Shown here in pieces: positions 18,668-61,447 of a stretch of DNA of 64,000 nucleotides. Source of the DNA: Gaetbulibacter sp. 4G1 (GTDB lineage: Bacteria; Bacteroidota; Bacteroidia; Flavobacteriales; Flavobacteriaceae); NCBI RefSeq assembly GCF_002741945.1, contig NZ_MDVN01000003.1:248001-312000 (forward strand), read 5' to 3'. Under the pieces are notes generated by a model. The model had not been told where the DNA came from. It did no database searches and saw only the letters and a list, made by a program, of their open reading frames with translations. Each line of letters starts with the position of its first letter. Within the stretch, counting starts at the first letter, position 1. The position numbers were made by a program, and so were the translations under genes.

Positions 18668-20353
18668 TTAAAACGCATCAGTTATACATCCTTTAGAAGC
18701 AGATGCAACTGACTTAGCGTATTTATATAATATTCCTTTTTTGTGTTTTAATTCTGGAGCTACCCATTGTGATTGTCTCTCAGCAATTTCTTCATCTGAT
18801 AGTAATACATTGATTGAGTTGTCTTCAGCACTAATTCTAATTTTGTCTCCAGTTTTAAGTAGACCTATAGTTCCTCCAGATTGAGCTTCAGGAGTAATGT
18901 GGCCTACTACAAAACCATGCGTTCCTCCAGAAAATCTACCATCAGTAATTAAAGCAACTGATTTGCCTAATCCAGCACCCATAATTAATGAGGTTGGTTT
19001 TAACATTTCTGGCATTCCAGGGCCCCCTTTTGGTCCAACATAGCGAATAACAACTACATCACCTCTTTCTACTTCTCCATTTGAAATTCCTGTATTTGCA
19101 GCTTGCTCACCATCATAGACCACTGCTTTTCCTTCAAAATTTAAACCTTCATTTCCACTAATTTTAGCCACAGCACCTTCAGATGCTAAGTTTCCATAAA
19201 GAATTTGTAGGTTTCCTGAAGATTTTAAAGCTTTATCTTTTGGGTGAATAACATCTTGGTCATCTTCAAATGTAAGAGGTTTAACATCAGCTAAATTTTC
19301 GGCTAAAGTTTTTCCTGTTACTGTTAAACAATCACCATGTAAATAGCCGTTGTCTAATAAATATTTCATTACTGCAGGAGTTCCTCCAATACCATGAACA
19401 TCTTCCATTAAGTATTTTCCTGATGGTTTTAAATCAGCAATTAGTGGTGTTCTATCACTAACTCGTTGAAAATCTTCTAGAGTAAAATCAATATCTGCAG
19501 CATGTGCAATTGCTAAAAAGTGTAATACTGCATTTGTTGAACCACCTAATGCATTTACAAGAGCGATGGCATTCTCAATAGATTTTTTTGAAATTATATC
19601 TAAAGGTTTTAAATCTAATTCTAAAAGATTCTTAACTGCTATAGCTGTTCTTTCACTTTCCGATAATTTATTTGGATTTTCCGCTGGAATAGAAGAATTA
19701 TATGGTAAAGAAAAACCCATACATTCTATAGCAGAAGCCATGGTGTTAGCTGTATACATACCGCCACAAGCACCTGCTCCTGGAATAGCTCTTTTAATAA
19801 TTTCTCTATATTCATTTTCATCAATTTCTCCAGCAACTTTTTGCCCTAAAGCTTCAAAAGCCGAGACAATATTTAATTTTCTTCCTTTATAGTTACCAGA
19901 TGCTATGGTTCCGCCGTACATCATTATTGATGGACGATTTAAGCGCAACATTGCTATAACCGCTCCAGGCATATTTTTATCACAACCTACAACAGAGATT
20001 AATGCATCATAACTTTGAGCATTCATAACAGTTTCAATAGAATCTGCTATAATATCTCTAGATGCTAAAGAATAATTCATACCAGAGGTTCCCATAGAAA
20101 TACCATCACTAACACCAATAGTATTAAATCCTAAACCAACTAAACCTGCTATTTTGCATTCAATTTTCACTTCTGCCGCTAAATTGTTTAAATGCATATT
20201 GCAAGGGTTCCCATCATACCCTGTACTTGCAATACCCACTTGAGCTTTTTGCATATCTTCATCAGATAAGCCTACGGCGTATAACATGGCTTGCGATGCA
20301 GGTTGAGATTCGTCTTGTGTTAGTCTTTTGCTATGTTTGTTGAGTTCTTTCAT
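18668..20353 (-). CDS. ilvD: Dihydroxy-acid dehydratase
   Basis: Iron-sulfur dehydratase producing the 2-oxo acids of valine and isoleucine. Cluster-ligand cysteines are seen in [10 protein letters not shown] and [28 protein letters not shown] and the GSTNAVLH motif are present. Length is 561 residues. It is the first structural gene of ilvDBNCA. A leader of about 370 bases precedes it and contains an Ile/Val-rich leader ORF and an intrinsic terminator. A palindrome ACCTTT-AA-AAAGGT lies at 20437-20450 in the untranslated region between terminator and start; no other element is recognisable in 20354-20597. Confidence 0.97.
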
Positions 20354-20597: not shown

Positions 20598-20627
20598 AAA
20601 AAAAGCCTTCCGTTTAAGGAAGGCTTT
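20598..20627 (-). terminator. Intrinsic terminator of the ilv leader
   Basis: On the minus strand AAAGCCTTCC (20627-20618), loop TTAAAC and GGAAGGCTTT (20611-20602) form a perfect 10-bp stem followed by seven T. It lies between the leader peptide and ilvD, about 245 bases before the ilvD start, so readthrough is needed for operon expression. Confidence 0.9.
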
Positions 20628-20660
20628 AAAATTTATTTTAAGTTTTAATATACCATCCCT
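20616..20660 (-). promoter_or_regulatory. Candidate antiterminator helix of the ilv attenuator
   Basis: AGGGATGG (20660-20653), starting at the last base of the leader stop codon, can pair with CCTTCCTT (20623-20616), which holds the 5' arm of the terminator; 7 of 8 positions pair, including one G-U. A ribosome resting at the stop codon would cover the first strand, and a ribosome stalled on upstream Ile/Val codons would leave it free. This is the geometry of a ribosome-mediated attenuator. It was found by eye, without energy calculation. Confidence 0.6.
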
Positions 20661-20722
20661 TATCGTTGTGAAATAATCACAATGACAATAATTGAAATGA
20701 TATTTAAAATTTGTTTTTTCAT
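20660..20722 (-). CDS. Leader peptide of the ilv operon (Ile/Val-rich)
   Basis: Twenty-codon ORF reading MKKQILNIISIIVIVIISQR, with eight Ile, two Val and one Leu, that is, the end products of the operon that follows. An in-frame ATG at 20734 would add MQQK. I prefer 20722 because a promoter-like AATATTTG (minus strand, 20742-20735) would place the transcript start near the first ATG. The stop is followed by the candidate antiterminator strand and then the terminator. A role as a sensor of Ile/Val-tRNA charging through ribosome stalling is inferred from codon content and layout. Confidence 0.8.
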   Translation of the reverse strand: MKKQILNIISIIVIVIISQR

Positions 20723-20813
20723 CTTTTGTTGCATCAAATATTATAAATAATTTTTACATAACAGTTCTTTTTTTAAAAAAAGAAAAATTCACTTCCATAT
20801 TCTTTTATTTTTT

Positions 20814-20821: not shown

Positions 20822-20835
20822 CCAACATAAACAAT

Positions 20836-20944
20836 AGAGGAAAGATTTGACTGATTGCAACCTCTTATATCGAATTAGATTATTGATATAAATAAAAATG
20901 CTAAAGGCAGTGTAAACTACCTTCGACGCCATCGTCAAATCTTT
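20836..20944 (+). ncRNA. SAM-II-like riboswitch (long-loop variant) with alternative helix, metK leader
   Basis: P1 is AGAGG (20836-20840) with CCTCT (20861-20865). Its loop holds GATTTGACTGATTGCAA, close to the conserved SAM-II loop. Downstream is ATGCTAAAGGC (20898-20908), corresponding to the 3' pseudoknot strand of SAM-II. Between them an extra hairpin, TATATC (20866-20871) with GATATA (20885-20890), gives the extended loop of the 'long loops' SAM-II variants. AAAGATTTGAC (20841-20851), inside the aptamer core, is perfectly complementary to GTCAAATCTTT (20934-20944), 16 bases before the metK ATG. This 11-bp helix would compete with the aptamer and may be the expression switch. The aptamer core is about 20836-20910. 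Confidence 0.78.
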
Positions 20945-23189: not shown

Positions 23190-23210
23190 GCGAGAATGAA
23201 TATGTTATTT

Positions 23211-23292
23211 TGCGTTAGCGATTGAAGTGGTATTCTTTTTTTTGGTACAAGAAAAAGATACAACGAAAAGCGCAACCTTTGTGGTAACGCCC
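23211..23292. repeat. Flavobacterial dispersed repeat, copy 1
   Basis: An 82-base unit beginning TGCGTTAGCGATTGAA and ending GTGGTAACGCCC. The ends are near-inverted (GCGTTA / TAACGC), with internal complementary tracts CTTTTT and AAAAAG, so it can fold as one long hairpin. A second copy lies at 50600-50679. Both are intergenic, directly after a short hypothetical or accessory gene. Confidence 0.75.
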
Positions 23293-27433: not shown

Positions 27434-27463
27434 CACTCACAAAGTTCAATAACTTATTGAAAT

Positions 27464-27580
27464 GTTATCAAGAAAGGTGGAGGGATTAGACCCTGCGAAA
27501 CCTTAGCAACCCTTTATCCGTAAAGAAGGTGCTAAATTCTACTTAAACTACTAATGTAATTAGTGTTTTAGATAGATAAC
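27464..27580 (+). ncRNA. SAM-I riboswitch upstream of metY
   Basis: P1 is GTTATC (27464-27469) with GATAAC (27575-27580). The core contains AAGAAAGGTGGAGGGA, the GCGAAACC...AGCAACCC block and AAGGTGCTAAATTCTAC, all matching the S-box/SAM-I consensus including the kink-turn and pseudoknot regions. Binding of SAM should lower expression of metY and the following fusion gene. Confidence 0.95.
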
Positions 27581-27586
27581 CAAACG

Positions 27587-45988: not shown

Positions 45989-46016
45989 CTTATCAGTTCA
46001 TTAATGTACTAATATT

Positions 46017-46125
46017 GTTATCAAGAAAGGTAGAGGGAATAGACCCGTTGAAGCCTTGGCAACCCTTTAACTTTTAAAGAAGGTGCTACATTCTACTAAT
46101 GTTTTTAAAATGTTAGAAAGATAAC
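46017..46125 (+). ncRNA. SAM-I riboswitch upstream of metH
   Basis: P1 is GTTATC (46017-46022) with GATAAC (46120-46125). The core has AAGAAAGGTAGAGGGAA, GTTGAAGCCTTGGCAACCC and AAGGTGCTACATTCTAC, matching the S-box consensus and closely resembling the copy at 27464. It should turn down the split metH operon when SAM is plentiful. Confidence 0.95.
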
Positions 46126-46148
46126 GAAAAGTGTTTCTTTTACTTTTC
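46126..46148 (+). promoter_or_regulatory. Candidate expression-platform hairpin after SAM-I (metH)
   Basis: GAAAAGT (46126-46132) pairs with ACTTTTC (46142-46148), starting at the base after P1. The downstream run of T is poor, so it could act on translation or as a weak terminator 30 bases before the ATG. Confidence 0.35.
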
Positions 46149-50357: not shown

Positions 50358-50597
50358 ATGAAATCAAAATATATTGAATTAACATTAGGAAGTCATATTA
50401 TTAGCCATGGATACGATAGCAATAATAAAGAAATAACAGAGGAAGTAACCGTTAGTGGTTTCTCAAAAAAGATTGTGGCAATTTCCAGAATTAAATCAGT
50501 TAGTGAAAAATACATACTAACAGATTATGCTGATGGAAGATGGATATATTGGGAATACGAGGAAGCTTTTGACGAGCTTAAAAAGCTGCTAGTTTAG
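50358..50597 (+). CDS. Hypothetical small protein
   Basis: 79 residues, soluble and beta-rich: KYIELTLGSHIISHGYDSNNKEITEEVTVSGF cut into short strands, then KYILTDYADGRWIYWEYEEAFDELKKLL. I recognise no family. Its length, acidic C-terminal helix and codon use look natural. It lies between metH and metF, and the dispersed repeat at 50600 starts right after its stop. It may form a two-gene unit with the 29-codon ORF before it. Confidence 0.55.
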   Translation: MKSKYIELTLGSHIISHGYDSNNKEITEEVTVSGFSKKIVAISRIKSVSEKYILTDYADGRWIYWEYEEAFDELKKLLV

Positions 50598-50599
50598 TT

Positions 50600-50679
50600 T
50601 GTGTTAGCGATTGAAACGGCATCCTTTTTTGTGAAACGAAAAAGATATAGTGGAAAGCGCGACTCTAGTGGTAACGCCA
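50600..50679. repeat. Flavobacterial dispersed repeat, copy 2
   Basis: An 80-base unit starting TGTGTTAGCGATTGAA and ending GTGGTAACGCCA, clearly related to 23211-23292. Shared cores are GTTAGCGATTGAA, a CTTTTTT tract, GAAAAAGATA, GGAAAGCGCGAC (GAAAAGCGCAAC in copy 1) and GTGGTAACGCC. The middle differs more than the ends. It starts two bases after a stop codon and ends 36 bases before metF. Confidence 0.75.
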
Positions 50680-51754: not shown

Positions 51755-52855
51755 ATGAGGTTATTTTTAATCTGTCTTTTTTGTGTTGTAAGTTGTAAGC
51801 TGTTTTCTCAAGAAAAAGAGCATACTTCGTATTTTGATCTTAGCTATTTTAAAGGTAATATCGCATTACATAATAACGATATTCTTCATTTAATAAAAGG
51901 ACACCCCGAAGGTTACATTTTAAGTTGGAATAAAAAAACGTTTGGATATAACGATTGGGAACAGCATTATAATTATCCAGATTATGGTGTTTCGTTTGCG
52001 TATCAAAATTTAAAAAACGAGGTTTTAGGCGAGGTATCCTCATTATATGCGCATTATAATTTTTACTTTTTAAAAAGAAACTTGATGTTTCGTATCGGGC
52101 AAGGGCTTGCTTTTACTACCAATCCGTACGATAAAAATAACAACTTTAGGAACATTGCTTTTGGTTCTAAATTAATGAGTAGTACTTATGTCATGCTTAA
52201 TTATAAAAAGGAACGAGTTATAGATAATTTTGGTTTCCAAGCAGGATTATCACTCATTCACTACTCTAATGCAAATGTTAAGGCTCCCAATACAAGTATT
52301 AATTCATTAACATTTAATTTAGGGGTTACTTATAGTTTAGATGATGAAGATCTAGAGTTTGTTACCACATTGTCTGAAACTAATGATGAAAAGTTCACAC
52401 AGCCTGTAAAGTATAATTTGGCTTTTAGGAGTGGTGTAAATGAGAGCGATGTAGTTGGTAGCGGACAGTTTCCTTTTTATATTATATCTGCTTATGCAGA
52501 TAAAAAAATCAACCATAAAAGTGCTTTGCAGTTTGGAACAGATGTGTTTTTTTCAAATTTTTTAAAAGAGCTTATTTATTATAAAAGTGTAGCTTTTCCT
52601 GAAGAAAATGTTTCTGGAAATGAGGATTATAAACGAGTAGGAGTTTTTGTAGGACATGAGTTATTTATAAATAAAACATCATTAATAACTCAATTAGGAT
52701 ATTATGTATATTATCCATTTGACTTTGAAGGGAAAACCTATTTTAGAGTGGGCTTAAAACGCTACATAAATGATAAATGGTTTGGCGCCTTGACATTAAA
52801 ATCACATGGAGCTAAAGCTGAAGCTGTTGAATTTGGAATAGGAGTTAGGTTATGA
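51755..52855 (+). CDS. Outer-membrane acyloxyacyl hydrolase / PagL-like lipid A deacylase
   Basis: 366 residues with a signal peptide (cleavage near LFSQE) and alternating beta-barrel strands. LSLIHYSNANVKAPNTSINSL contains the H-x-S-N pattern of PagL-type lipid A deacylases. The protein ends in a strand with GIGVRL, typical of outer-membrane proteins. It is longer than PagL proper (about 185), as is usual for the Bacteroidetes family named acyloxyacyl hydrolase. The next gene overlaps its stop by four bases (ATGA). Confidence 0.8.
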   Translation: MRLFLICLFCVVSCKLFSQEKEHTSYFDLSYFKGNIALHNNDILHLIKGHPEGYILSWNKKTFGYNDWEQHYNYPDYGVSFAYQNLKNEVLGEVSSLYAHYNFYFLKRNLMFRIGQGLAFTTNPYDKNNNFRNIAFGSKLMSSTYVMLNYKKERVIDNFGFQAGLSLIHYSNANVKAPNTSINSLTFNLGVTYSLDDEDLEFVTTLSETNDEKFTQPVKYNLAFRSGVNESDVVGSGQFPFYIISAYADKKINHKSALQFGTDVFFSNFLKELIYYKSVAFPEENVSGNEDYKRVGVFVGHELFINKTSLITQLGYYVYYPFDFEGKTYFRVGLKRYINDKWFGALTLKSHGAKAEAVEFGIGVRL

Positions 52856-53598
52856 AAAAAGCAATTTACATATTAATCTTATTATTAGTTTTTGCCTGCG
52901 ATAGTGAAAGTGCTGGAGATTGTTTTCAAAAAACGGGTTCTATTATTCAACAAGAAGTTAGTGTTGACGCTTTTGATAAAATATTAGTTAATCGTGATAT
53001 TGAATTAATAATTAAAGAAGGGGCTACACAAAAAGTAATTATAGAAACTGGTAAAAATTTATTAAATGATGTTGAGGCAAGTGTTGTAGATGGAAAACTA
53101 ACCCTTACCGATAATAATAATTGCAATTATGTACGTGGTTATGGTATAACCAAAGTGTATATAACTTCACCAAATATTACTGAGATTAGAAGCTCTACAC
53201 AGTATGATATTAGATCAGATGGTGTTTTAACTTACCCAAATTTAACTGCTCTATCTGAAGATTTTGGAGCCCCTGATACATTTACTAATGCAAATTTCAG
53301 ATTACAAATTGATAATAATTCTTTTAGATTAGTTTTTAATAATTTATCTAATTGTTTTATTTCTGGTAAAACAGATAATTTAAGTATAACATTTGCGGCA
53401 GGAACTTCGCGTTTTGAAGGTCGAGATTTAATAGCTCAAAACGTACAATTTTGGAATAGAAGTTCTAACGATATGATTGTAAATCCGCAACAAGAAATAA
53501 AAGGAAAAATTTCTGGTACAGGTAATGTAATTGCAGTAAATAAACCTCCAGTTATTGAAGTAGAGGAAGTTTATAAAGGTAGACTTATTTTTGAGTGA
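52852..53598 (+). CDS. DUF2807 (GIN-domain) lipoprotein
   Basis: 248 residues, lipoprotein signal ending at VFAC (Cys16). The body is a right-handed beta-helix-like DUF2807 'auto-transporter adhesin head GIN' domain: VSVDAFDKILVNRDIELIIKEG, VIIETGKNLLNDVEASV, KVYITSPNITEIRSSTQYDI, GTSRFEGRDL. It is translationally coupled to the barrel protein upstream through the ATGA overlap. Function is unknown; a surface or envelope role is expected. Its stop abuts the stop of gldA on the other strand with no spacer. Confidence 0.85.
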   Translation: MKKAIYILILLLVFACDSESAGDCFQKTGSIIQQEVSVDAFDKILVNRDIELIIKEGATQKVIIETGKNLLNDVEASVVDGKLTLTDNNNCNYVRGYGITKVYITSPNITEIRSSTQYDIRSDGVLTYPNLTALSEDFGAPDTFTNANFRLQIDNNSFRLVFNNLSNCFISGKTDNLSITFAAGTSRFEGRDLIAQNVQFWNRSSNDMIVNPQQEIKGKISGTGNVIAVNKPPVIEVEEVYKGRLIFE

Positions 53599-54495
53599 TT
53601 AGTCAGCAGTTAACTCTCTAAACAAGCTTTCTAAACTTGCGTTTTTTTGATTAAGCTGAAGAATTTTCAATTGGTTATCATGCGCAAAATCAAAAACATA
53701 AGAGCGCATATCTTCGGTAGTTTTAAAAGTGATTTCGTATACAAAACCATGAGTGTTTACAACACTCTCAACTTTTGGAAGTTTTAATAGAAAAGCATCT
53801 TCAACCCGGTAATCAAATTCAACAATAACAGTTTGTTTTTTACCTTCACGTAATTCCTTCAACTTTTTGTTGGCAACTATTTCACCTTTATTAATAATAA
53901 TAACGCGGTCGCACATTGCTTCTACTTCTTGCATAATATGGGTAGAAAGGAATACTGTTTTAGTTTTGCCTATCGTTTTGATAAGGTTTCTAATATCGAT
54001 TAATTGATTTGGGTCTAAGCCAGTTGTAGGTTCATCTAAAATTAAAACATCAGGATCATGCAATAAAGCATTTGCTAAACCTACACGTTGGCGATACCCT
54101 TTTGAGAGTTGTCCTATTTTTTTATTTACTTCAGGTGTTAAACCAGTAAGCTCAATTACTTCGTCTACCCGCGCTTTTGCAACCTTGTATATATTCGCAT
54201 TAAAAGCCAAATATTCTTTAATATACATGTCTAAATACAACGGATTGTGCTCGGGTAAATACCCAACACTTTGCTGTACGTCTTGTGTGTTTTCGTTAAT
54301 GTTAAATCCATTTACTTTGGCATTGCCTTTTGTGGCATTAATATATGTAGTTAAAATTTTCATCATGGTAGATTTTCCAGCACCATTAGGTCCTAAAAAA
54401 CCAACAATTTCAGGTTTATTAACCTTAAAAGATATATTGTTTAATGCTTTTTGACTTCCATAAAGCTTTAAAATTCCTTCAACTTCAATAGACAT
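53599..54495 (-). CDS. gldA: Gliding-motility ABC transporter ATP-binding subunit
   Basis: 298 residues. Walker A GPNGAGKST, the Q-loop region VGYLPEHNPLYLDMYIKEYLAF, signature LSKGYRQRVGLANALLHDP and Walker B VLILDEPTTGLDPNQL are complete; the C-terminal 90 residues are the GldA-type extension. The LPEHNPLYLDMY segment is typical of GldA as opposed to other ABC ATPases. The partner permeases GldF and GldG are not in the window. It is transcribed away from the aromatic operon. Confidence 0.9.
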   Translation of the reverse strand: MSIEVEGILKLYGSQKALNNISFKVNKPEIVGFLGPNGAGKSTMMKILTTYINATKGNAKVNGFNINENTQDVQQSVGYLPEHNPLYLDMYIKEYLAFNANIYKVAKARVDEVIELTGLTPEVNKKIGQLSKGYRQRVGLANALLHDPDVLILDEPTTGLDPNQLIDIRNLIKTIGKTKTVFLSTHIMQEVEAMCDRVIIINKGEIVANKKLKELREGKKQTVIVEFDYRVEDAFLLKLPKVESVVNTHGFVYEITFKTTEDMRSYVFDFAHDNQLKILQLNQKNASLESLFRELTAD

Positions 54496-54600
54496 AATTT
54501 AAATAGTTTGTTCAAAAATAATAATTATATAATGTAAAGGTTGGTTTACTATAAAATCTTTAAAATTTTTAATAAAACCGAAAAAAAGATTATATAGTAT

Positions 54601-54630
54601 TTTGATTTCTTAAAATATTATTTACTTTAG
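54601..54630 (+). promoter_or_regulatory. Promoter of the aromatic amino-acid operon
   Basis: TTTG (54601-54604), 18 bases, TACTTTAG (54623-54630; one mismatch from TAnnTTTG). The predicted start is just before the leader ORF at 54641. The rest of 54496-54600 is AT-rich spacer shared with gldA. Confidence 0.6.
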
Positions 54631-54640
54631 CCACGTAATT

Positions 54641-54724
54641 ATGACAACAACAATGCATTATACATATTTTAACAACTGGTTTTATTTCTTTTTTAGCAAA
54701 AGGAACGAGGCGTTGTATGTATAA
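54641..54724 (+). CDS. Aromatic leader peptide of the pheA operon
   Basis: 27 codons with five Phe (10, 14, 16, 17, 18), four Tyr (7, 9, 15, 26), one Trp (13) and one His; ten of 27 are aromatic, concentrated in the NNWFYFFF stretch at positions 11-18. It lies between the promoter and a strong terminator in front of a Phe/Tyr biosynthesis operon. A 10-bp helix can form between 54657-54666 and 54716-54725, flanking the aromatic codons. I infer a ribosome-stalling sensor of charged Phe/Tyr (and perhaps Trp) tRNA. Confidence 0.8.
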   Translation: MTTTMHYTYFNNWFYFFFSKRNEALYV

Positions 54725-54754
54725 TTTATAACTATAAATTTAATATGAGTCTCG
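54706..54754 (+). promoter_or_regulatory. Candidate antiterminator of the aromatic attenuator
   Basis: CGAGGC (54706-54711), within leader codons 22-24, can pair with GTCTCG (54749-54754), which is the 5' arm of the terminator: six pairs, one G-U. Its GC content stands out in this region. A ribosome stalled on the aromatic codons leaves CGAGGC free, while one reaching the stop at 54724 covers it. A weak hairpin, AATTTATA/TATAAATT (54723-54740), lies between. It was found by eye only. Confidence 0.6.
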
Positions 54755-54778
54755 ATGAAAATCGAGACTTTTTTTTTT
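54748..54778 (+). terminator. Intrinsic terminator directly before pheA
   Basis: AGTCTCGAT (54748-54756), GAAA tetraloop, ATCGAGACT (54761-54769), then a run of ten T to 54778. It is a strong terminator that ends four bases before the pheA ATG at 54783, so the operon is expressed only when it is bypassed. Confidence 0.92.
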
Positions 54779-54782
54779 GAAT

Positions 54783-55610
54783 ATGATAAAGACAGTAGCT
54801 ATACAGGGTGTAAAAGGATCATTTCATCATATAGTTTCTCAACAGTTTTTTAATAAAGATGTTGAAGCTATTGAGTGTTTAACTTTTGATCGTGTTGTAG
54901 AAAGCTTAATAGGTGAAGAATGTGATGCAGCGATAATGGCTTTAGAGAATTCCATTGCAGGTTCAATTATTCCTAATTATGCATTAATAGATAGTTGTAA
55001 TTTGCATGTAGTTGGTGAGCATTATGTTGATGTTCAACATAATTTAATGGCTTTGCCAAAGCAAAGTATTTCAGATATAAAAGAAGTGTATTCACACCCT
55101 ATGGCATTGTTGCAGTGTAAAGAGTTTTTTAAAGAATACCCGCATATAAAACTTGTAGAAGATAAAGATACAGCCGAAGTAGCACAGCGTATAAATGAAA
55201 AAAAATTAAAAGGTATTGGAGCCATTGCAAGTGTAAAAGCTGCTGAAATTTTTAAACTTGATATATTAAAACCTAGTATACAAACTATTAAACACAACGA
55301 AACACGTTTTGCGATTGTAAAGCGAACAAATTCTGAAGTACCAGAAAGCGAAATAAATAAAGCTTCGATAAAGTTTGAAACCGACCATAAGCGTGGAAGT
55401 TTAGCAGCAATTTTGAATGTAATGAGTGACTGTAAAATGAATTTAACAAAAATTCAATCATTACCAATTGTTGAAACGCCTTGGAAGTATGCTTTTTTTG
55501 TTGATGTAACTTTTAGTGATTATGCAGATTTTAAAAAAGCAAAAAATATAATTGATATTATGGGACAAGGATTTAAAGTTCTTGGAGAATATAAAAATGC
55601 AAAGTTATGA
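54783..55610 (+). CDS. pheA: Prephenate dehydratase
   Basis: Turns prephenate into phenylpyruvate. 275 residues: PDT domain (about 1-180; VAIQGVKGSFHHIV, ALENSIAGSI, and the TRF of NETRFAIVKR) and a C-terminal ACT domain (about 195-275; FETDHKRGSLAAILNVMSD, LTKIQSLPI in place of the usual ESRP region). There is no fused chorismate mutase; that domain is on the DAHP synthase at 57618. I use the ATG at 54783; a TTG six bases earlier lies inside the T-tract. First gene of the operon; the next start overlaps its stop (ATGA). Confidence 0.95.
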   Translation: MIKTVAIQGVKGSFHHIVSQQFFNKDVEAIECLTFDRVVESLIGEECDAAIMALENSIAGSIIPNYALIDSCNLHVVGEHYVDVQHNLMALPKQSISDIKEVYSHPMALLQCKEFFKEYPHIKLVEDKDTAEVAQRINEKKLKGIGAIASVKAAEIFKLDILKPSIQTIKHNETRFAIVKRTNSEVPESEINKASIKFETDHKRGSLAAILNVMSDCKMNLTKIQSLPIVETPWKYAFFVDVTFSDYADFKKAKNIIDIMGQGFKVLGEYKNAKL

Positions 55611-56752
55611 TTGAAGTCGCTAACAGACTGCATACCGTTGAAGAATATTACTTCTCAAAAAAATTAAGAGAAGTTAATTTACTTATTGCAAGTGGTAAGC
55701 CTATTATTAATTTAGGTATTGGTAGTCCAGATTTACAACCGCCACAAAAAGTAGTTGAAGCTTTAACTGAAGGATTGTCAAACCCATTTGCACATAAATA
55801 TCAAAGTTATCAAGGGCTACCAGAGCTTCGGGATGCTATAGCAAAGTTTTATAAAGAACATTTCTCGGTTGATTTAAGTGCTAATACTGAGGTTTTACCT
55901 TTAATGGGAAGTAAAGAAGGTATTATGCACATTTCTATGGCATATTTAAATGAAGGCGATGAGGTGTTAATTCCTAATCCGGGATATCCTACTTATCAAT
56001 CGGTAACAAAATTAGTAGGAGCAAAACCTGTTTTTTATGAGTTGGATGCTGCTAATAATTGGATGCCAGATTTGAAAAGTTTAGAAAAGTCTGATTTAAG
56101 TAAGGTGAAATTAATGTGGGTTAATTATCCGCATATGCCAACAGGAGCAAAAGCTAATAAGTACTTGTTTGAAGATTTAGTTGCCTTTGCAAAGCGAAAC
56201 AATATTTTAATTGTAAACGATAATCCATATAGTTTTATTTTAAATGATAACCCAAAAAGCATATTAGAAGTAGAGGGAGCAAAAGAGGTGTGTTTAGAAC
56301 TTAATTCTTTAAGTAAAACGTTTAATATGGCAGGTTGGCGTGTTGGTATGTTAGTTGGAAATGATGAGCACATAAATAATGTTTTAAAGGTGAAAAGTAA
56401 TATGGATTCTGGAATGTTTTATGGAATTCAAAAAGGAGCTATTGAAGCTTTAAAGTGCTCTAAAATGTGGTTTGTTACATTAAATAGTGTTTATAAACAA
56501 CGACGAGATTTAGTTTGGAAATTAGCCGACGCATTAAACTGCACTTATGATAAAACAGCAAAAGGACTTTTTGTTTGGGCTAAATTACCAGCATTTGTTA
56601 AAGCAGAAGAGTTTATAGATTTAATTCTTAAAGAGAACCATGTTTTTATTACCCCTGGAACAATTTTTGGAAGCCAGGGAGAAGGTTACATAAGGTTTTC
56701 TTTATGTGCCTCAACCGAAGTTTTAGAGAAAGCATTAGCAAGATTAAAATAA
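55607..56752 (+). CDS. Class I/II aminotransferase (aromatic/aspartate type)
   Basis: PLP aminotransferase of 381 residues. The PLP Lys is in NSLSKTFNMAGWRVG; other landmarks are NLGIGSPDLQPPQKV, YQSYQGLPELRDAIAKFY, NPGYPTYQ and IRFSLCAS. It probably transaminates phenylpyruvate and hydroxyphenylpyruvate (or prephenate), given its place between pheA and tyrA. The sequence also resembles LL-diaminopimelate and aspartate aminotransferases, so specificity is inferred from context. Confidence 0.9.
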   Translation: MIEVANRLHTVEEYYFSKKLREVNLLIASGKPIINLGIGSPDLQPPQKVVEALTEGLSNPFAHKYQSYQGLPELRDAIAKFYKEHFSVDLSANTEVLPLMGSKEGIMHISMAYLNEGDEVLIPNPGYPTYQSVTKLVGAKPVFYELDAANNWMPDLKSLEKSDLSKVKLMWVNYPHMPTGAKANKYLFEDLVAFAKRNNILIVNDNPYSFILNDNPKSILEVEGAKEVCLELNSLSKTFNMAGWRVGMLVGNDEHINNVLKVKSNMDSGMFYGIQKGAIEALKCSKMWFVTLNSVYKQRRDLVWKLADALNCTYDKTAKGLFVWAKLPAFVKAEEFIDLILKENHVFITPGTIFGSQGEGYIRFSLCASTEVLEKALARLK

Positions 56753-56754
56753 GT

Positions 56755-57606
56755 ATGAAAAATATATACATAATAGGAGTTGGTTTAATAGGCGGGAGTC
56801 TTGCTATAGATATTAAAAAAAATAATTCAAGTACGGTTATACATGGTATTAGTAGAAAAGATTCTACTTTAAATGAAGCATTATCTCTTAATTTAATTGA
56901 TAAAAAGGCCACATTAGATGATATTGAAAATGCAGACTTGGTTATTGTATCTATTCCAGTAGATGCAACCGTTAAATTATTACCAACCATTTTAGATAAA
57001 ATTTCGGATAATGGATTGGTTGTAGACGCAGGATCGACAAAAGTAGACATATGTAAAGTAGTTGAGAATCATCCTAAACGAAGAAATTTTTTAGCAATGC
57101 ATCCTATTGCAGGGACAGAGCATTCTGGACCAAGCGCAGCGATTCCAGATTTGTTTATAGGTAAAACAAATATTATTTGTGAGGTAGAAAAGACAACATT
57201 TAAACTTCAAGAAAAGGCATTAAAACTATTTACCGATATAGGGATGCGTATTCGATATATGAACCCAGAGGCTCACGATAAGCATATTGCTTATATGTCG
57301 CACTTATCTCATATTAGTTCATTTATGTTAGGTAAAACAGTTATTGAAAAAGAAAAAAATGAGCGCGATATTTTTGATATGGCAGGTAGTGGGTTTGAAT
57401 CAACGGTTAGGTTGGCTAAAAGTTCACCAGAAATGTGGACGCCTATTTTTAAACAAAATAAAACCAATGTTATTGAAACATTAGAAGAGTATATTACGAA
57501 TCTTACGCATTTTAAAGAGTTAATGAAACAAGATGATTTTGATGCCATTTTTAGCGAAATGAAAGATACCAATCATATAAAAGATATTTTAAACGGAATT
57601 AGTTAA
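56755..57606 (+). CDS. tyrA: Prephenate dehydrogenase
   Basis: NAD-dependent oxidative decarboxylation of prephenate to 4-hydroxyphenylpyruvate. 283 residues. The start at 56755 gives the Rossmann motif IYIIGVGLIGGSLAID at once; an upstream in-frame ATG at 56704 lies inside the aminotransferase gene. Typical residues: GSTK, the HPIAGTEHSGPSAA loop with the catalytic His, and HDKHIAYMSHLSHI. No ACT or chorismate mutase domain is attached. Starts 2 bases after the aminotransferase stop. Confidence 0.94.
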   Translation: MKNIYIIGVGLIGGSLAIDIKKNNSSTVIHGISRKDSTLNEALSLNLIDKKATLDDIENADLVIVSIPVDATVKLLPTILDKISDNGLVVDAGSTKVDICKVVENHPKRRNFLAMHPIAGTEHSGPSAAIPDLFIGKTNIICEVEKTTFKLQEKALKLFTDIGMRIRYMNPEAHDKHIAYMSHLSHISSFMLGKTVIEKEKNERDIFDMAGSGFESTVRLAKSSPEMWTPIFKQNKTNVIETLEEYITNLTHFKELMKQDDFDAIFSEMKDTNHIKDILNGIS

Positions 57607-57617
57607 GTAGTAAAATT

Positions 57618-58700
57618 ATGGAAAACAAAAAAGAAATGAGAACATGGTTAGATGATTTAAAACTAGATCATCCATTAGTAATTGCTGGACCATGTAGTGC
57701 AGAAACCGAAGAGCAAGTTTTAAAAATAGCACACGAGCTTAAAGATACCGATGTTAATTATTTTAGAGCAGGAATATGGAAACCAAGAACACGTCCGGGA
57801 ATGTTTGAAGGTGTTGGTGCTTTAGGGTTAAAATGGTTGCAGAAAGTAAAAGAAGAAACAGGAATGAAAACCTGTACAGAAGTTGCTAATGCTGCCCATG
57901 TAAAATTGGCTTTAGAGCATGATATTGATTTATTATGGATTGGAGCACGCTCAACGGTTAGCCCCTTTATTATGCAAGAAATTGCAGATGCCTTGCAAGG
58001 AACTGACAAAACAGTACTAGTAAAAAACCCTGTAAATCCAGATTTAGCTTTATGGTTAGGTGGTATTGAAAGATTACATAGTGCAGGTATTAAAAATTTA
58101 GGCGCTATTCATAGAGGGTTTTCAACATACGAAAAGTCGAAATATCGTAATATTCCAGAATGGCAATTAGCCATAGAATTTCAAAATAAATTTCCTGATT
58201 TACCATTAATAAATGACCCTTCTCATATTACAGGTAAAAGAGATATGGTTTTTGAAGTATCTCAAGAAGCATTAGATTTAAATTTTGATGGTTTAATGAT
58301 TGAAACTCATCATGATCCAGATAATGCTTGGAGTGATGCAGCACAGCAAGTGACACCAAAAGCTTTGATACAGATGATGATAGATCTTAAAATTAGAAAA
58401 ACTACTGATAAAGAAGCAGATTATACTAATGCACTAAATAATTTAAGAGCACAGATAGATGTGGTAGATAATCAAATTATTGAATTACTTGGTAAACGTA
58501 TGAAAGCTGCTGATGGTATTGGAGCTCTAAAAAAGAGTAAAAACGTAGCGGTATTACAATCTAAACGTTGGAATGAGATTTTAGGTAAAATGGTTTTAGA
58601 AGGAGAATCTAAAGGATTAAGTGAAGAGTTTATTTTAAAAATGTTTAAAGCTATTCACCAAGAGTCTATTAATCATCAAGAAAAGATTATTAATGGATAA
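57618..58700 (+). CDS. DAHP synthase (KDO8PS-like type) fused to chorismate mutase
   Basis: 360 residues. The N-terminal barrel (about 1-260) is 3-deoxy-7-phosphoheptulonate synthase: VIAGPCSAETEEQV, RAGIWKPRTRPGMFEG, LWIGARS, AIHRGFS and INDPSHITGKR. The C-terminal helical domain (about 270-360; LRAQIDVVDNQIIELLGKRM) is an AroQ-type chorismate mutase. Thus one protein covers the first and a branch step of aromatic synthesis, and feedback can act through the mutase domain. Last gene of the operon, followed by a strong terminator. Confidence 0.95.
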   Translation: MENKKEMRTWLDDLKLDHPLVIAGPCSAETEEQVLKIAHELKDTDVNYFRAGIWKPRTRPGMFEGVGALGLKWLQKVKEETGMKTCTEVANAAHVKLALEHDIDLLWIGARSTVSPFIMQEIADALQGTDKTVLVKNPVNPDLALWLGGIERLHSAGIKNLGAIHRGFSTYEKSKYRNIPEWQLAIEFQNKFPDLPLINDPSHITGKRDMVFEVSQEALDLNFDGLMIETHHDPDNAWSDAAQQVTPKALIQMMIDLKIRKTTDKEADYTNALNNLRAQIDVVDNQIIELLGKRMKAADGIGALKKSKNVAVLQSKRWNEILGKMVLEGESKGLSEEFILKMFKAIHQESINHQEKIING

Positions 58701-58711
58701 AGTTTGTAAAC

Positions 58712-58743
58712 AAAAAAGCCCTCACAATTGTGAGGGCTTTTTT
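58712..58743. terminator. Terminator after the aromatic operon
   Basis: A perfect 32-base palindrome: AAAAAAGCCCTCACAA (58712-58727) followed by its complement (58728-58743), with a T-run on both strands. It can serve the aromatic operon and the convergent gene at 58760. Confidence 0.9.
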
Positions 58744-58759
58744 TATAAGTAACATTCTG

Positions 58760-59209
58760 TTATTTATTTCTTTTGAAAAGGTAACGTGTTATAAAAATAC
58801 CTTTACCATCTCCTTTTCCTCCTTCACTTTCTACAGCACTAGTAACAAAAGCTAGCTCCCATCCCTCTTCTATCATTGTGTTAATTTTAGAAGTAATTAT
58901 CGCATCATTTGCAGCTATATTTTGAAAACGAATGCCTCCAAGGTTATAAAAGTTTAATAATTTAGTTTCGTCAAAACCTTTAACTCTTATGTCCCCACGT
59001 TTAGATTTGTTACGTGTTTTATCCTCTTCAGTTTGCGTTGTTGTGTACTCTTTGTAGTCTTTTTGTTCGTTAGCACTAATAAGTCTAGAACGTCCTAAAC
59101 CATTAGGGACAATAGATTCTACACTAGTAATAACTTTGTACTCTACTTGAGCCGTTGCATCCATAAATGCGAAAAGGCTAATAGCCAAAACAATAAATAA
59201 TTTTTTCAT
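58760..59209 (-). CDS. Secreted protein of unknown function
   Basis: 149 residues with a signal peptide (MKKLFIVLAISLFAFMDATAQ; cleavage after TAQ). The mature part is polar, with a Lys/Thr-rich middle (YTTTQTEEDKTRNKSKRG) and ends in a stretch seen in many Bacteroidetes secreted proteins (INTMIEEGWELAFVTSAV... FITRYLFKR). I recognise no function. It is a single gene, transcribed towards the terminator of the aromatic operon. A weak TAATCTTG-like element lies upstream on the minus strand. Confidence 0.8.
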   Translation of the reverse strand: MKKLFIVLAISLFAFMDATAQVEYKVITSVESIVPNGLGRSRLISANEQKDYKEYTTTQTEEDKTRNKSKRGDIRVKGFDETKLLNFYNLGGIRFQNIAANDAIITSKINTMIEEGWELAFVTSAVESEGGKGDGKGIFITRYLFKRNK

Positions 59210-59284
59210 GTTGTTGATTTTTGATTAAAATTAATAATGACAAGATTAACCAATATCTATGCCAAAAAAAATATTTTTTAGTTT

Positions 59285-59292
59285 TACTTTTG
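59285..59292 (+). promoter_or_regulatory. -7 promoter element of rsgA
   Basis: TACTTTTG, an exact TAnnTTTG match, 9 bases before the ATG at 59301. It lies inside the 5' extension of the reading frame, which argues that the true start is 59301 and the mRNA is nearly leaderless. Confidence 0.55.
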
Positions 59293-59300
59293 AAAAAGTT

Positions 59301-60248
59301 ATGACAGGACGCGTTTATAAATCTACAGGTAGTTGGTACTCAGTTAAAACCGAATTGGGTGAAATGTACAAATGCCGTATAAAAGGGAAGTTTCGTATAA
59401 AAGGAATTAAAAGCACCAACCCCATTGCTGTGGGTGATATTGTAGATTTTGAATTAGAGACAGATAATGATCAGGAATCAGGGATTATTCATAATATTAA
59501 AGATAGATTTAATTATATTGTTAGAAAATCGGTAAACCTCTCTAAGCAAACACATATTATTTCGGCAAATATTGATCTAGTCTTTTTAATGATTACTATT
59601 AATAACCCACCAACACTAACCAGTTTTATTGATAGATTTTTAGTAACAGCTGAAGCATACTCCATAAAAACCATATTGCTGTTTAATAAGATTGACACTT
59701 ATGACGAGGATACATTAAATGAGGTTAAATATTTAGCACATGTGTATAGAAAAATTGGCTATGAATGTATAGGGGTATCAGCTGTAACAGGAAAGAATGT
59801 AGATAAAGTAAAATCTTTAATGCGTGGTAAAGTAAGTATGTTTTCTGGACATTCTGGAGTTGGTAAATCTACACTTGTAAATGCTATCGAGCCTTCGTTA
59901 AATATTAAAACAAAAGAAATTTCAACCCAACATATGCAAGGGCAGCATACTACTACATTTGCAGAAATGTTCGATCTAAGTTTTGATGCTAAAATTATCG
60001 ATACTCCAGGAATAAAAGGCTTCGGAGTTGTGGATATGGATAAAGAAGAAGTAGGCGATTATTTTCCCGAAATATTTAAATTAAAACAAGATTGCAAATT
60101 CAATAATTGTTTGCATACCAAAGAACCAAAGTGTGCAATAAAAAAAGCCTTAGATAGTGATGAGATAGCGTTTTCGCGTTACAGAAGCTATTTGCAAATT
60201 ATTGAAGGTGAAGATGAGCATTATAGAACTGATAATTGGGAAAAGTAA
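59301..60248 (+). CDS. rsgA: Ribosome small-subunit-dependent GTPase A
   Basis: Late 30S assembly GTPase (YjeQ/RsgA), 315 residues. OB-fold at about 1-75 (GRVYKSTGSWYSV); circularly permuted GTPase with the G4-type NKID first, then G1 GHSGVGKSTLVNAI and G3 DTPGIKGFG; C-terminal zinc knuckle with C-x4-C-x-H-x5-C (CKFNNCLHTKEPKC). An in-frame ATG at 59259 would add 14 hydrophobic residues but overlaps the likely promoter, so I reject it. Confidence 0.96.
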   Translation: MTGRVYKSTGSWYSVKTELGEMYKCRIKGKFRIKGIKSTNPIAVGDIVDFELETDNDQESGIIHNIKDRFNYIVRKSVNLSKQTHIISANIDLVFLMITINNPPTLTSFIDRFLVTAEAYSIKTILLFNKIDTYDEDTLNEVKYLAHVYRKIGYECIGVSAVTGKNVDKVKSLMRGKVSMFSGHSGVGKSTLVNAIEPSLNIKTKEISTQHMQGQHTTTFAEMFDLSFDAKIIDTPGIKGFGVVDMDKEEVGDYFPEIFKLKQDCKFNNCLHTKEPKCAIKKALDSDEIAFSRYRSYLQIIEGEDEHYRTDNWEK

Positions 60249-60286
60249 TAGTTAATTGTTTACCAAATTAAAATAATTTATAATAT

Positions 60287-61447
60287 ATGAAATATTTTTT
60301 TGTATCTCTTATTGCTTCATTATTGACTGTAAGCTGTTTGAATAGAAAGACTGATAATCCAGAAAATAAAGTTCTTGAAAAAACTAAAGATATCTTCAAA
60401 CTAAACACCTTATTTAAGCAAGGGGAAGGCGGCTATGCTTGTTATAGAATACCAGCGATTGTTACTGCTAATAACGGAGCTATTTTAGCTTTTAGTGAAG
60501 CTCGAAAATCTAGCTGCTCTGATACAGGAGATATAGATTTGGTTATGAAAAAATCTATAGATAATGGTGTTACATGGAGCAATGTTAAAATAATTTGGAA
60601 CGATAAAGCTAATGTTTGTGGAAACCCATCACCGGTAGTAGATGTTGAAACAGGTACTGTTCATTTGCTAGTTACTTGGAATAACGGAGAAGATCATGAA
60701 TCAGAAATTATTAACGGGACAAGTATTGATGGCAGATTAGTATATCATTTAGTGTCAACTGATCATGGAGAAACATGGTCAGAGCCAAAAAATATTACTG
60801 CTACTACTAAAAAGCCCAATTGGTCGTGGTATGCAACTGGACCTGTACACGGTATTCAATTAAAAAAAGGAAATTATAAAGGAAGGTTGATAATTCCGTG
60901 CGACCATATTGAAAAAGAGACAAAGAAATACTATTCACACGTTTTTTATTCAGATGATCATGGTGTTTCATGGGAGCTAGGGGGAAGTACTCCTGTTGAT
61001 CAAGTAAATGAATGCACAATAGCAGAGTTAACAAATGGAGACTTACTGCTTAATATGCGCAATTATAATAGAGATGCTGTTAAATCTAGACAAATAGCGA
61101 TTAGTGAAAATGGAGGTGATACATGGATTAATCAAAAATTTGATACCCAATTACCAGAGCCTAGGTGTCAAGGCGCGTTATTATCTGTTCAAAATAGTAA
61201 AAAGAACGCTTTACTATTTACAAATCCAGCAGATTCAATGGCAAGAGTAAATATGACGCTTTCAATAAGCAATGATGATGGTTTAAGTTGGGGCAAAAAA
61301 ATTCCTATATATAAATCGCATTCTGCTTATTCAGACCTTACAGAATTAAAGAATGGAAATATTTTAGTTTTATATGAAGGGGGTATTGAAAATGCCTATG
61401 AAGGTATTCATTACAAAATTATTCCTAAAAACCTTATTTTTAATTAA
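60287..61447 (+). CDS. Sialidase (GH33, BNR repeats), lipoprotein
   Basis: Exo-alpha-sialidase-like, 386 residues with a lipoprotein signal ending at VSC (Cys17). The FRIP-type motif is GYACYRIPAIV. Asp boxes (S-x-D-x-G-x-x-W) occur about five times: SIDNGVTWS, STDHGETWS, SDDHGVSWE, SENGGDTWI and SNDDGLSWG. The catalytic Tyr/Glu region near TDLTELKNGNILVLYEGG is present, and SEARKSSCSDTGDIDLV carries the family Asp. It would remove terminal sialic acids at the cell surface. It stands alone, without other sialic-acid genes, next to rsgA and dtd. Confidence 0.9.
   Translation: MKYFFVSLIASLLTVSCLNRKTDNPENKVLEKTKDIFKLNTLFKQGEGGYACYRIPAIVTANNGAILAFSEARKSSCSDTGDIDLVMKKSIDNGVTWSNVKIIWNDKANVCGNPSPVVDVETGTVHLLVTWNNGEDHESEIINGTSIDGRLVYHLVSTDHGETWSEPKNITATTKKPNWSWYATGPVHGIQLKKGNYKGRLIIPCDHIEKETKKYYSHVFYSDDHGVSWELGGSTPVDQVNECTIAELTNGDLLLNMRNYNRDAVKSRQIAISENGGDTWINQKFDTQLPEPRCQGALLSVQNSKKNALLFTNPADSMARVNMTLSISNDDGLSWGKKIPIYKSHSAYSDLTELKNGNILVLYEGGIENAYEGIHYKIIPKNLIFN

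Follow-up and report, generated by a model that had tools for sequence, protein, structure and literature searches.

What controls the operon for aromatic amino acid synthesis in Gaetbulibacter sp. 4G1 is the question raised by a short region directly upstream of its first gene, pheA, in which a small open reading frame (ORF) rich in aromatic codons is followed by a terminator. The window, i.e. the whole stretch of 64,000 nucleotides that was analysed, belongs to a genome of 3.9 Mb in 25 contigs. The original prediction saw in this region ribosome-mediated attenuation, with a Phe-, Tyr- and Trp-rich leader peptide and a terminator in front of pheA, and our comparative tests support it: we put the probability that a ribosome-mediated transcription attenuator lies upstream of the pheA - aminotransferase - tyrA - DAHP synthase/chorismate mutase operon at about 0.93. 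Most likely the operon would be turned on when ribosomes run short of aromatic amino acids. This reading is based on the anatomy of the region, its conservation, the conservation of its codons in frame, the pairing and covariation of its RNA strands, and their spacing.

The genes behind the leader (Table 1) had been taken for genes of Phe and Tyr synthesis, with which the domain matches agree. At the level of NCBIfam the picture is less complete: the pheA product matches the prephenate dehydratase models below their cut-offs, and for the aminotransferase none over cut-off was found among the 25 of 70 matches listed. The name DAHP synthase for the fusion gene rests on Pfam, because its matches to the NCBIfam DAHP synthase models likewise fall below their cut-offs. 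The genome possesses two PF00793 genes. Since the second is a KDO8P synthase (NCBIfam equivalog over cut-off) and the search for a type II DAHP synthase gave none, the pheA operon appears to be the home of the only detected DAHP synthase, and with it of the sole entry enzyme of the aromatic pathway, Trp included. The order of the operon genes is identical in all 70 named loci that are long enough to test (80 fetched).

From 5' to 3' the region consists of TTTG, 18 nt, the box TACTTTAG, 10 nt, the leader ORF, 24 nt, the hairpin and the pheA ATG. The predicted promoter-like pair upstream of the leader can be read in the sequence, and its -7 box differs at one position from TAnnTTTG, the -7 consensus of Bacteroidota given in a transcript study of Flavobacterium psychrophilum (Guerin et al. 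2021, PMC9723704). A strict form of this promoter (TTG-N17-21-TAnnTT[TA]G, at most 75 nt 5' of the leader ATG) is present at 50 of 80 loci. Between the end of the -7 box and the leader ATG there are 10 nt at the window locus and 8-24 nt at these 50, and the description of the sensor peptide as 'nearly leaderless' holds only with its 'nearly'. An E. coli-style promoter scan gave no enrichment (41 found, 42.6 expected); it uses the E. coli consensus and has no bearing on a Bacteroidota promoter. The 27-codon ORF was predicted with correct counts and coordinates: five Phe, four Tyr and one Trp, i.e. 10 of 27 codons are aromatic; its peptide has no match in Pfam at E 0.001. Equally, the antiterminator option CGAGGC:GTCTCG is present as described, and the 9-bp GAAA-capped terminator with ten T, ending four bases 5' of the pheA ATG, is read directly. 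Elsewhere in the window genome 29 bases match the leader again (L002); they lie antisense within a coding gene, and this match was rejected as chance.

Table 1. Features of the pheA leader region and its operon, and of a second, candidate leader in the window (positions of the window)
Feature	Position	Strand	Details and basis
Predicted promoter	54601..54630	+	Sequence: TTTG 54601-54604, 18 nt, -7 box TACTTTAG 54623-54630
Leader peptide ORF, MTTTMHYTYFNNWFYFFFSKRNEALYV and stop	54641..54724	+	27 codons, ATG start; comparable leaders in other loci
Strand 1, AUUAUACAUAU	54657..54667	+	Pairs with 54715-54725 as the 1:2 (anti-antiterminator) helix; fold, swap test
Sensor codons Tyr7 to Phe18	54659..54694	+	5 Phe, 3 Tyr, 1 Trp; in-frame codon share, neighbour comparison
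Strand 2, CGAGGC, antiterminator 5' strand	54706..54711	+	Starts 11 nt after the last Phe codon
Rest of antiterminator	54713..54748	+	UUGUAU 54713-54718 with AUAUGA 54743-54748, around hairpin 54723-54729 with 54734-54740
Strand 3, GTCTCG	54749..54754	+	Common to antiterminator and terminator
Intrinsic terminator	54748..54778	+	9-pair stem, GAAA loop, 10 T; sequence, covariation in 43 loci
pheA, prephenate dehydratase	54783..55610	+	PF00800 over Pfam cut-off
Class I/II aminotransferase	55607..56752	+	PF00155
tyrA, prephenate dehydrogenase	56752..57606	+	PF02153, PF20463; NF006307 over its cut-off
DAHP synthase - chorismate mutase fusion	57618..58700	+	PF00793 and PF01817 over cut-offs
Candidate Ile/Val-rich attenuator	20606-20734	-	Leader MQQKMKKQILNIISIIVIVIISQR, terminator CCTTCCTTAAACGGAAGG, upstream of ilvD

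This arrangement recurs in many genomes. A first set of 149 genomes, the window's own included, yielded a PheA match in 103, of which 101 were scored after two loci with incomplete upstream DNA (L017, L097) had been dropped. An ATG ORF with at least five Phe, Tyr or Trp codons, followed by a terminator near pheA, was found at 80 of these 101 loci, again with the window's own among them, versus 0 of 2020 shuffled regions (20 dinucleotide shuffles per region). The 21 misses comprise seven loci with a divergent PheA (27-30% identity), five in genomes of 0.6 Mb and nine others, among which L081, L093 and L096 do possess an aromatic ORF with no scored terminator nearby. Among named genomes the element is present in 78 of 80, and upstream DNA at the two misses amounts to only 128 and 150 nt; this set overlaps the first (7 of the 78 elements are identical to one there), and records from the window's own genome or ones very close to it may be missing. 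Flavobacteriaceae (e.g. Aestuariivivens, Flaviramulus, Flavivirga and Algibacter) supply the nearest PheA relatives among the names listed. A class-wide draw used 69 of the 73 class genomes with a PheA match (G000, G093, G266 and G376 were left out) and gave the element in 41 of 69 upstream regions, namely 8 of 8 from the same family and 33 of 61 from other families, although three of these matches (L154, L170, L180) look spurious. One locus with two TAG codons in its PheA frame (L098) is contained in the 80 of the presence, strand 2 distance and antiterminator swap counts, and was dropped from the 1:2 swap and fold tests (n = 79), from the frame shares of single codon types, from the spacing counts and from the neighbour counts. 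The conservation of aromatic codon runs, proposed with the original prediction as an alignment check, is borne out by all three samples.

The leader is conserved as a reading frame. Among 120 leaders with a run (L180 dropped) the share of aromatic codons is 0.390 in the ORF frame versus 0.128 and 0.178 in the other two, and TTY codons outnumber TTR codons in the leader frame by 605 to 87; these frame counts lean towards the ORF frame because the loci were chosen for at least five aromatic codons in it. The same direction, with the same lean from the choice of loci, is seen codon by codon: after removal of the four doubtful loci (L154, L161 and L170 in addition to L180), the share of TAY is 0.153 in frame versus 0.018 and 0.045, and that of TGG 0.024 versus 0.003 and 0.007. 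TTY reaches 0.220 in frame versus at most 0.128 in the other frames; TTR has 0.032 in frame versus 0.067 and 0.104. A check that does not rest on the per-codon frame count comes from 52 pairs of near neighbours, defined by no more than four differences within the final ten codons of the run. Their differences number 14, 31 and 42 at codon positions 1, 2 and 3, respectively, and among the 55 that affect aromatic codons there are 23 synonymous changes, 22 replacements of one aromatic residue by another and 10 gains or losses, i.e. an aromatic residue is kept in 45. Phe and Tyr replace each other without loss of aromatic character, which is expected if a ribosome can stall at either.

These comparisons bear on the possibility that a riboswitch or a protein-bound leader controls the terminator as a purely RNA-based element, the ORF being a by-product of a T-rich stretch. 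Such an element would account for a strong terminator with alternative helices, T-rich DNA gives TTT by chance, and the way in which loci were chosen accounts for part of the frame counts. Neither the peak of near-neighbour differences at the third codon position and the 45 retained aromatic residues, nor the joint excess of TTY, TAY and TGG in frame with TTR running the other way, agrees with it. In addition, no Rfam family matches 54601-54783 at gathering score, the T-box family (RF00230) has no match in the genome and none in the window at gathering score, and no common unpaired core is evident in the aligned segments between run and terminator. We regard control by RNA without translation as extremely improbable.

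As attenuation requires, the leader ORF is enriched in codons for the products of the operon, which the 10 of 27 aromatic codons, the scan against its shuffles and the near-neighbour comparison indicate. Phe is present in all 80 order-level leaders, Tyr in 79 and Trp in 50; the corresponding numbers for the 40 class-level leaders are 40, 40 and 16. Trp codons are enriched in the leaders alongside those for Phe and Tyr, and 56 of 68 lie within the ten codons that end the run. The proposal that a single leader would sense both Phe and Tyr is upheld in so far as codons for both are conserved, and is to be amended, as the putative sensor also includes Trp.

The stem of the terminator is formed by 54748-54756 with 54761-54769 (9 pairs, or 10 with a terminal G-U counted), and the first of the ten T at 54769-54778 still lies within it; four bases then lead to the pheA ATG at 54783. 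Five terminator-like sites in 52000-60500 are an ordinary number (3.8 ± 2.0 in shuffles), and that of the leader has the most pairs among them. Leader and terminator together fold into a structure more stable than all of 200 dinucleotide shuffles (z -4.55), in contrast to the leader up to the 5' arm, which contains the 1:2 hairpin and is of ordinary stability (z -0.99, 32 of 200 shuffles as stable). When whole leaders are folded free of ribosomes, the terminator is formed in 75 of 79. In a MAFFT alignment (A2; 43 of 74 distinct segments) two-sided changes occur in six of six terminator pairs and 99.6% of the cells are paired (0 of 500 shuffles). An intrinsic terminator thus stands in the sequence between leader and first gene, and it is predicted to terminate transcription there.

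The antiterminator emerges from the fold of 54701-54758, which models the RNA that is free ahead of a ribosome stalled on the aromatic run: 12 pairs are formed around a 7-pair hairpin, with -13.0 kcal/mol and z -2.81, and 2 of 200 shuffles are as stable. Across leaders strand 2 pairs with the 5' arm of the terminator over 7.1 bp on average. As a control for similar composition, strand 2 regions were matched with arms taken from other genomes. Own partners scored 17.23 versus 13.51 ± 0.29 for swapped ones, with a maximum of 14.31 in 500 swaps (n = 80), and the same held for 32 loci of other families (18.44 versus 14.68 ± 0.52, maximum 16.44). Variants of strand 2 and arm change together: CGAGGC/GTCTCG in the window corresponds to CGGGAC/GTCCCG, CAGGAC/GTCCTG and AGCGGG/CCCGCT elsewhere, and further loci have CCGGGAT/ATCCCGG and TCCGGG/CCCGGA. 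In the alignment, 98.1% of antiterminator cells are paired and two-sided changes occur in three of six pairs, which 14 of 500 shuffles reach; 14 cells are changed on both sides versus 4.4 ± 2.4 in shuffles (0 of 500), and the count of pair types is no higher than in shuffles, all 500 of which reach it. This count was made on alignment A3, because the MAFFT alignment A2 sets strand 2 one column out of register between clades; A3 consists of 26 hand-chosen segments trimmed just 5' of strand 2, a choice that favours the helix. The swap test is therefore the fairer control, since swapped pairs get equal freedom. The antiterminator folds at 77 of 79 loci, but against a high background (608 of 1580 with a shuffled strand), and an RNAalifold consensus contains the terminator only, the antiterminator being absent. 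Taken with the fold, the swap test and the covariation argue for a 2:3 antiterminator that shares the 5' arm of the terminator and excludes it; the alignment check proposed for the two helices thus gave covariation in both, and CGAGGC:GTCTCG also surpasses swapped partners.

A third helix, 1:2, would pre-empt the antiterminator in an untranslated leader. It is backed by its own swap test (17.96 for own versus 14.57 ± 0.28 for swapped partners, maximum of 200 swaps 15.41, n = 79), its stability by itself being ordinary. The set of 1:2, 2:3 and 3:4 helices is complete, as in classical attenuators. This bears on another explanation, that of a plain terminator of antisense or upstream transcription without a regulatory role. 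Its location between an ABC-transporter gene on the opposite strand (53599-54495) and pheA would suit such a function. Yet it sits 3' of the operon's own predicted promoter and directly before pheA, and the competing helices pair best with their own partners; a terminator of this passive kind is hardly credible here.

The preferred reading, attenuation by a translating ribosome, makes the distance between codons and helices meaningful. At 74 of 80 loci, 8-12 nt separate the last aromatic codon from the start of strand 2 (search range 3-30 nt), and the midpoint of the antiterminator helix lies 13.7 ± 1.3 nt after that codon (n = 79). The leader stop codon follows the last aromatic codon at 22.4 ± 7.4 nt, with a range of 6-33 (n = 79). 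The relatedness of the loci adds to the clustering of strand 2, but their stop codons are not clustered to that degree. Eight of the 78 named leaders have their stop one codon behind FFF, and even there strand 2 is found 10-11 nt from the run. These early-stop leaders (L187, L188, L191, L198, L202, L205, L206 and L265) are close relatives, in which the stop has moved and the RNA switch has stayed. Ribosome footprints extend roughly 10-11 nt past the codon in the A site, so that with the last aromatic codon there, strand 2 begins where a stalled ribosome would end. The spacing fits a strand 2 that would be exposed by a stalled ribosome and masked by one at the stop codon, given an approximate footprint and loci that are related.

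We infer the transcription start, the stalling, termination in vivo and the response to each amino acid as follows. Transcription would start a few bases 5' of the leader AUG, and a ribosome translating the leader would meet the run of Phe, Tyr and Trp codons. With ample charged aromatic tRNA it would reach the stop codon and cover strand 2 (CGAGGC); strand 3 would then pair with strand 4, and the terminator would halt RNA polymerase before pheA. If charged Phe-, Tyr- or Trp-tRNA is scarce, the ribosome would come to a halt within the run, its front edge stopping just short of strand 2, which, being free, would pair with the emerging strand 3, so that no terminator forms and the operon is transcribed. 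In a leader that is not translated, strand 1 would pair with 54715-54725 and disturb the antiterminator, and the terminator would form.

The leader might instead act as an arrest peptide, a control for which TnaC and SecM are examples: the nascent peptide itself would bind the ribosome tunnel or a free amino acid and stall, independently of codon starvation. A translated leader with a conserved core, e.g. NWFYFFF in many close relatives, is what this would predict. On the other hand, aromatic content is kept while the order varies between clades (FYFYFFF, YFGYFYYF and others), Phe and Tyr interchange even between near neighbours, as in the 22 aromatic-to-aromatic changes, and the stop codon may stand anywhere from 6 to 33 nt behind the run, down to the single codon after FFF noted above. 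The leaders of hisG and trpE, moreover, carry other cognate residues. Arrest by the peptide is accordingly a very improbable account of the conserved codon run.

Attenuators of this kind are not new to the phylum: Guerin et al. (2021) named a pheA element together with clues to attenuation (PMC9723704): passages of this study report strong clues for leader-peptide attenuation upstream of amino-acid operons in F. psychrophilum, and describe 5' elements of pheA and hisG as conserved in other genera and without Rfam hits. The F. psychrophilum pheA element is similar to ours in that it precedes the same gene in the same bacterial family, is structured and conserved, has no Rfam hit and is suspected of attenuation; the comparison is one by description, leaving sequence identity aside, and unlike our data those passages are an account without codons, helices, covariation or a range beyond the family (PMC9723704). 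To this the present analysis adds the codons of the leader, its three helices and their covariation, a rule for the spacing, the presence of Trp in the run and the class-wide range; some of this may already stand in the supplements of that study. The original prediction considered attenuation best documented in proteobacteria and a nearly leaderless sensor peptide unusual in this phylum. Clues to attenuation in the phylum had already been reported, with the pheA element among those named (PMC9723704). Among the open-access matches listed, PMC9723704 is the only one whose passages name a pheA element in this phylum; none is named in the corresponding passages of PMC4833913, PMC8305728 and PMC6847099, and PMC7366714 mentions leader-peptide-like small ORFs in Bacteroides.

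The leader may further be compared with well-known systems and with its counterparts in the same genome. The pheL-pheA system of E. coli has a Phe-rich leader peptide, and an antiterminator and a terminator alternate before pheA; pheL responds to Phe alone and relies on a Shine-Dalgarno start. The likeness lies in the Phe-rich leader and the alternating structures in front of the same gene. Here, in contrast, Phe, Tyr and Trp codons are mixed, pheA, tyrA and DAHP synthase are united in one operon, and the phylum is described as lacking Shine-Dalgarno sequences (PMC6847099). Within the window genome, hisG is preceded by the leader MTFIQLHHHFHICSQAK and a terminator and trpE by MNKILNTNWWWCFRN and a terminator, and ilvD, located in the window on the minus strand, is likewise preceded by an Ile/Val-rich leader with a terminator (Table 1); ilvD belongs to the dihydroxy-acid dehydratase family (PF00920, near 19295-20248). 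The trpE and hisG leaders of this genome and its relatives share with the pheA leader a short ATG ORF, a cognate codon run and a terminator before the gene and, considering the genome's own loci, a complementary strand 3' of the run; unlike the pheA leader, they are dominated by one cognate residue (WWW or HHH runs). The pairing of the strand 3' of the run with the terminator hairpin is modest in the hisG, trpE and ilvD leaders, being matched by 13, 35 and 91 of 1000 letter-shuffled strands, respectively; in the genome's own trpE leader 18 nt separate the run from this strand, whose partner is the loop and 3' arm of the terminator. Among relatives, a leader with at least three His codons and a terminator was found upstream of hisG at 20 of 20 loci (L267-L286) versus 0 of 400 shuffles, and one with at least two Trp codons upstream of trpE at 18 of 22 loci (L287-L308) versus 0 of 440, the trpE scan being limited to loci of at least 50% identity with weaker paralogues left out. 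A homoserine dehydrogenase gene on contig C23, one of two such genes, has no leader ORF with terminator upstream.

It is an even bet, in our view, that one leader pools Phe, Tyr and Trp codons as an OR-gate guarding entry to the whole aromatic pathway, and that it belongs to a set of leader-peptide attenuators (for aromatic residues, His, Trp and Ile/Val), of which the aromatic one is class-wide, in a phylum without Shine-Dalgarno starts. The OR-gate is suggested by the location of the only detected DAHP synthase in this operon and by the interchange of Phe and Tyr codons between relatives. Ribosome-mediated attenuation needs a ribosome that keeps pace with RNA polymerase. If this reading of gate and set is true, ribosomes in these bacteria are able to initiate only a few nucleotides from the 5' end and to remain coupled to the polymerase. 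With a conserved set of such leaders in Bacteroidia, a single reporter for each amino acid would put transcription-translation coupling to a direct test in a phylum that lacks Shine-Dalgarno starts. The leaders also provide a search rule for amino-acid control: a short ATG ORF with a cognate run, then a strand resembling the 3' arm of the terminator, then the terminator, with a spacer of 8-12 nt in the case of pheA. The wide range suggests a leader family fit for registration; no Rfam family matches the pheA leader.

Other regulatory RNAs are found in the same window. A SAM-II riboswitch at 20831-20914 (+; 55.3 bits) is the back-to-back neighbour of the ilvD leader and faces the opposite way, and SAM (S-box) riboswitches occur at 27462-27582 and 46015-46127 (+), which places two different SAM-sensing classes within 26 kb. 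Flavo-1, a flavobacterial RNA of unknown function, has matches at 23207-23281 and 50592-50668 (+).
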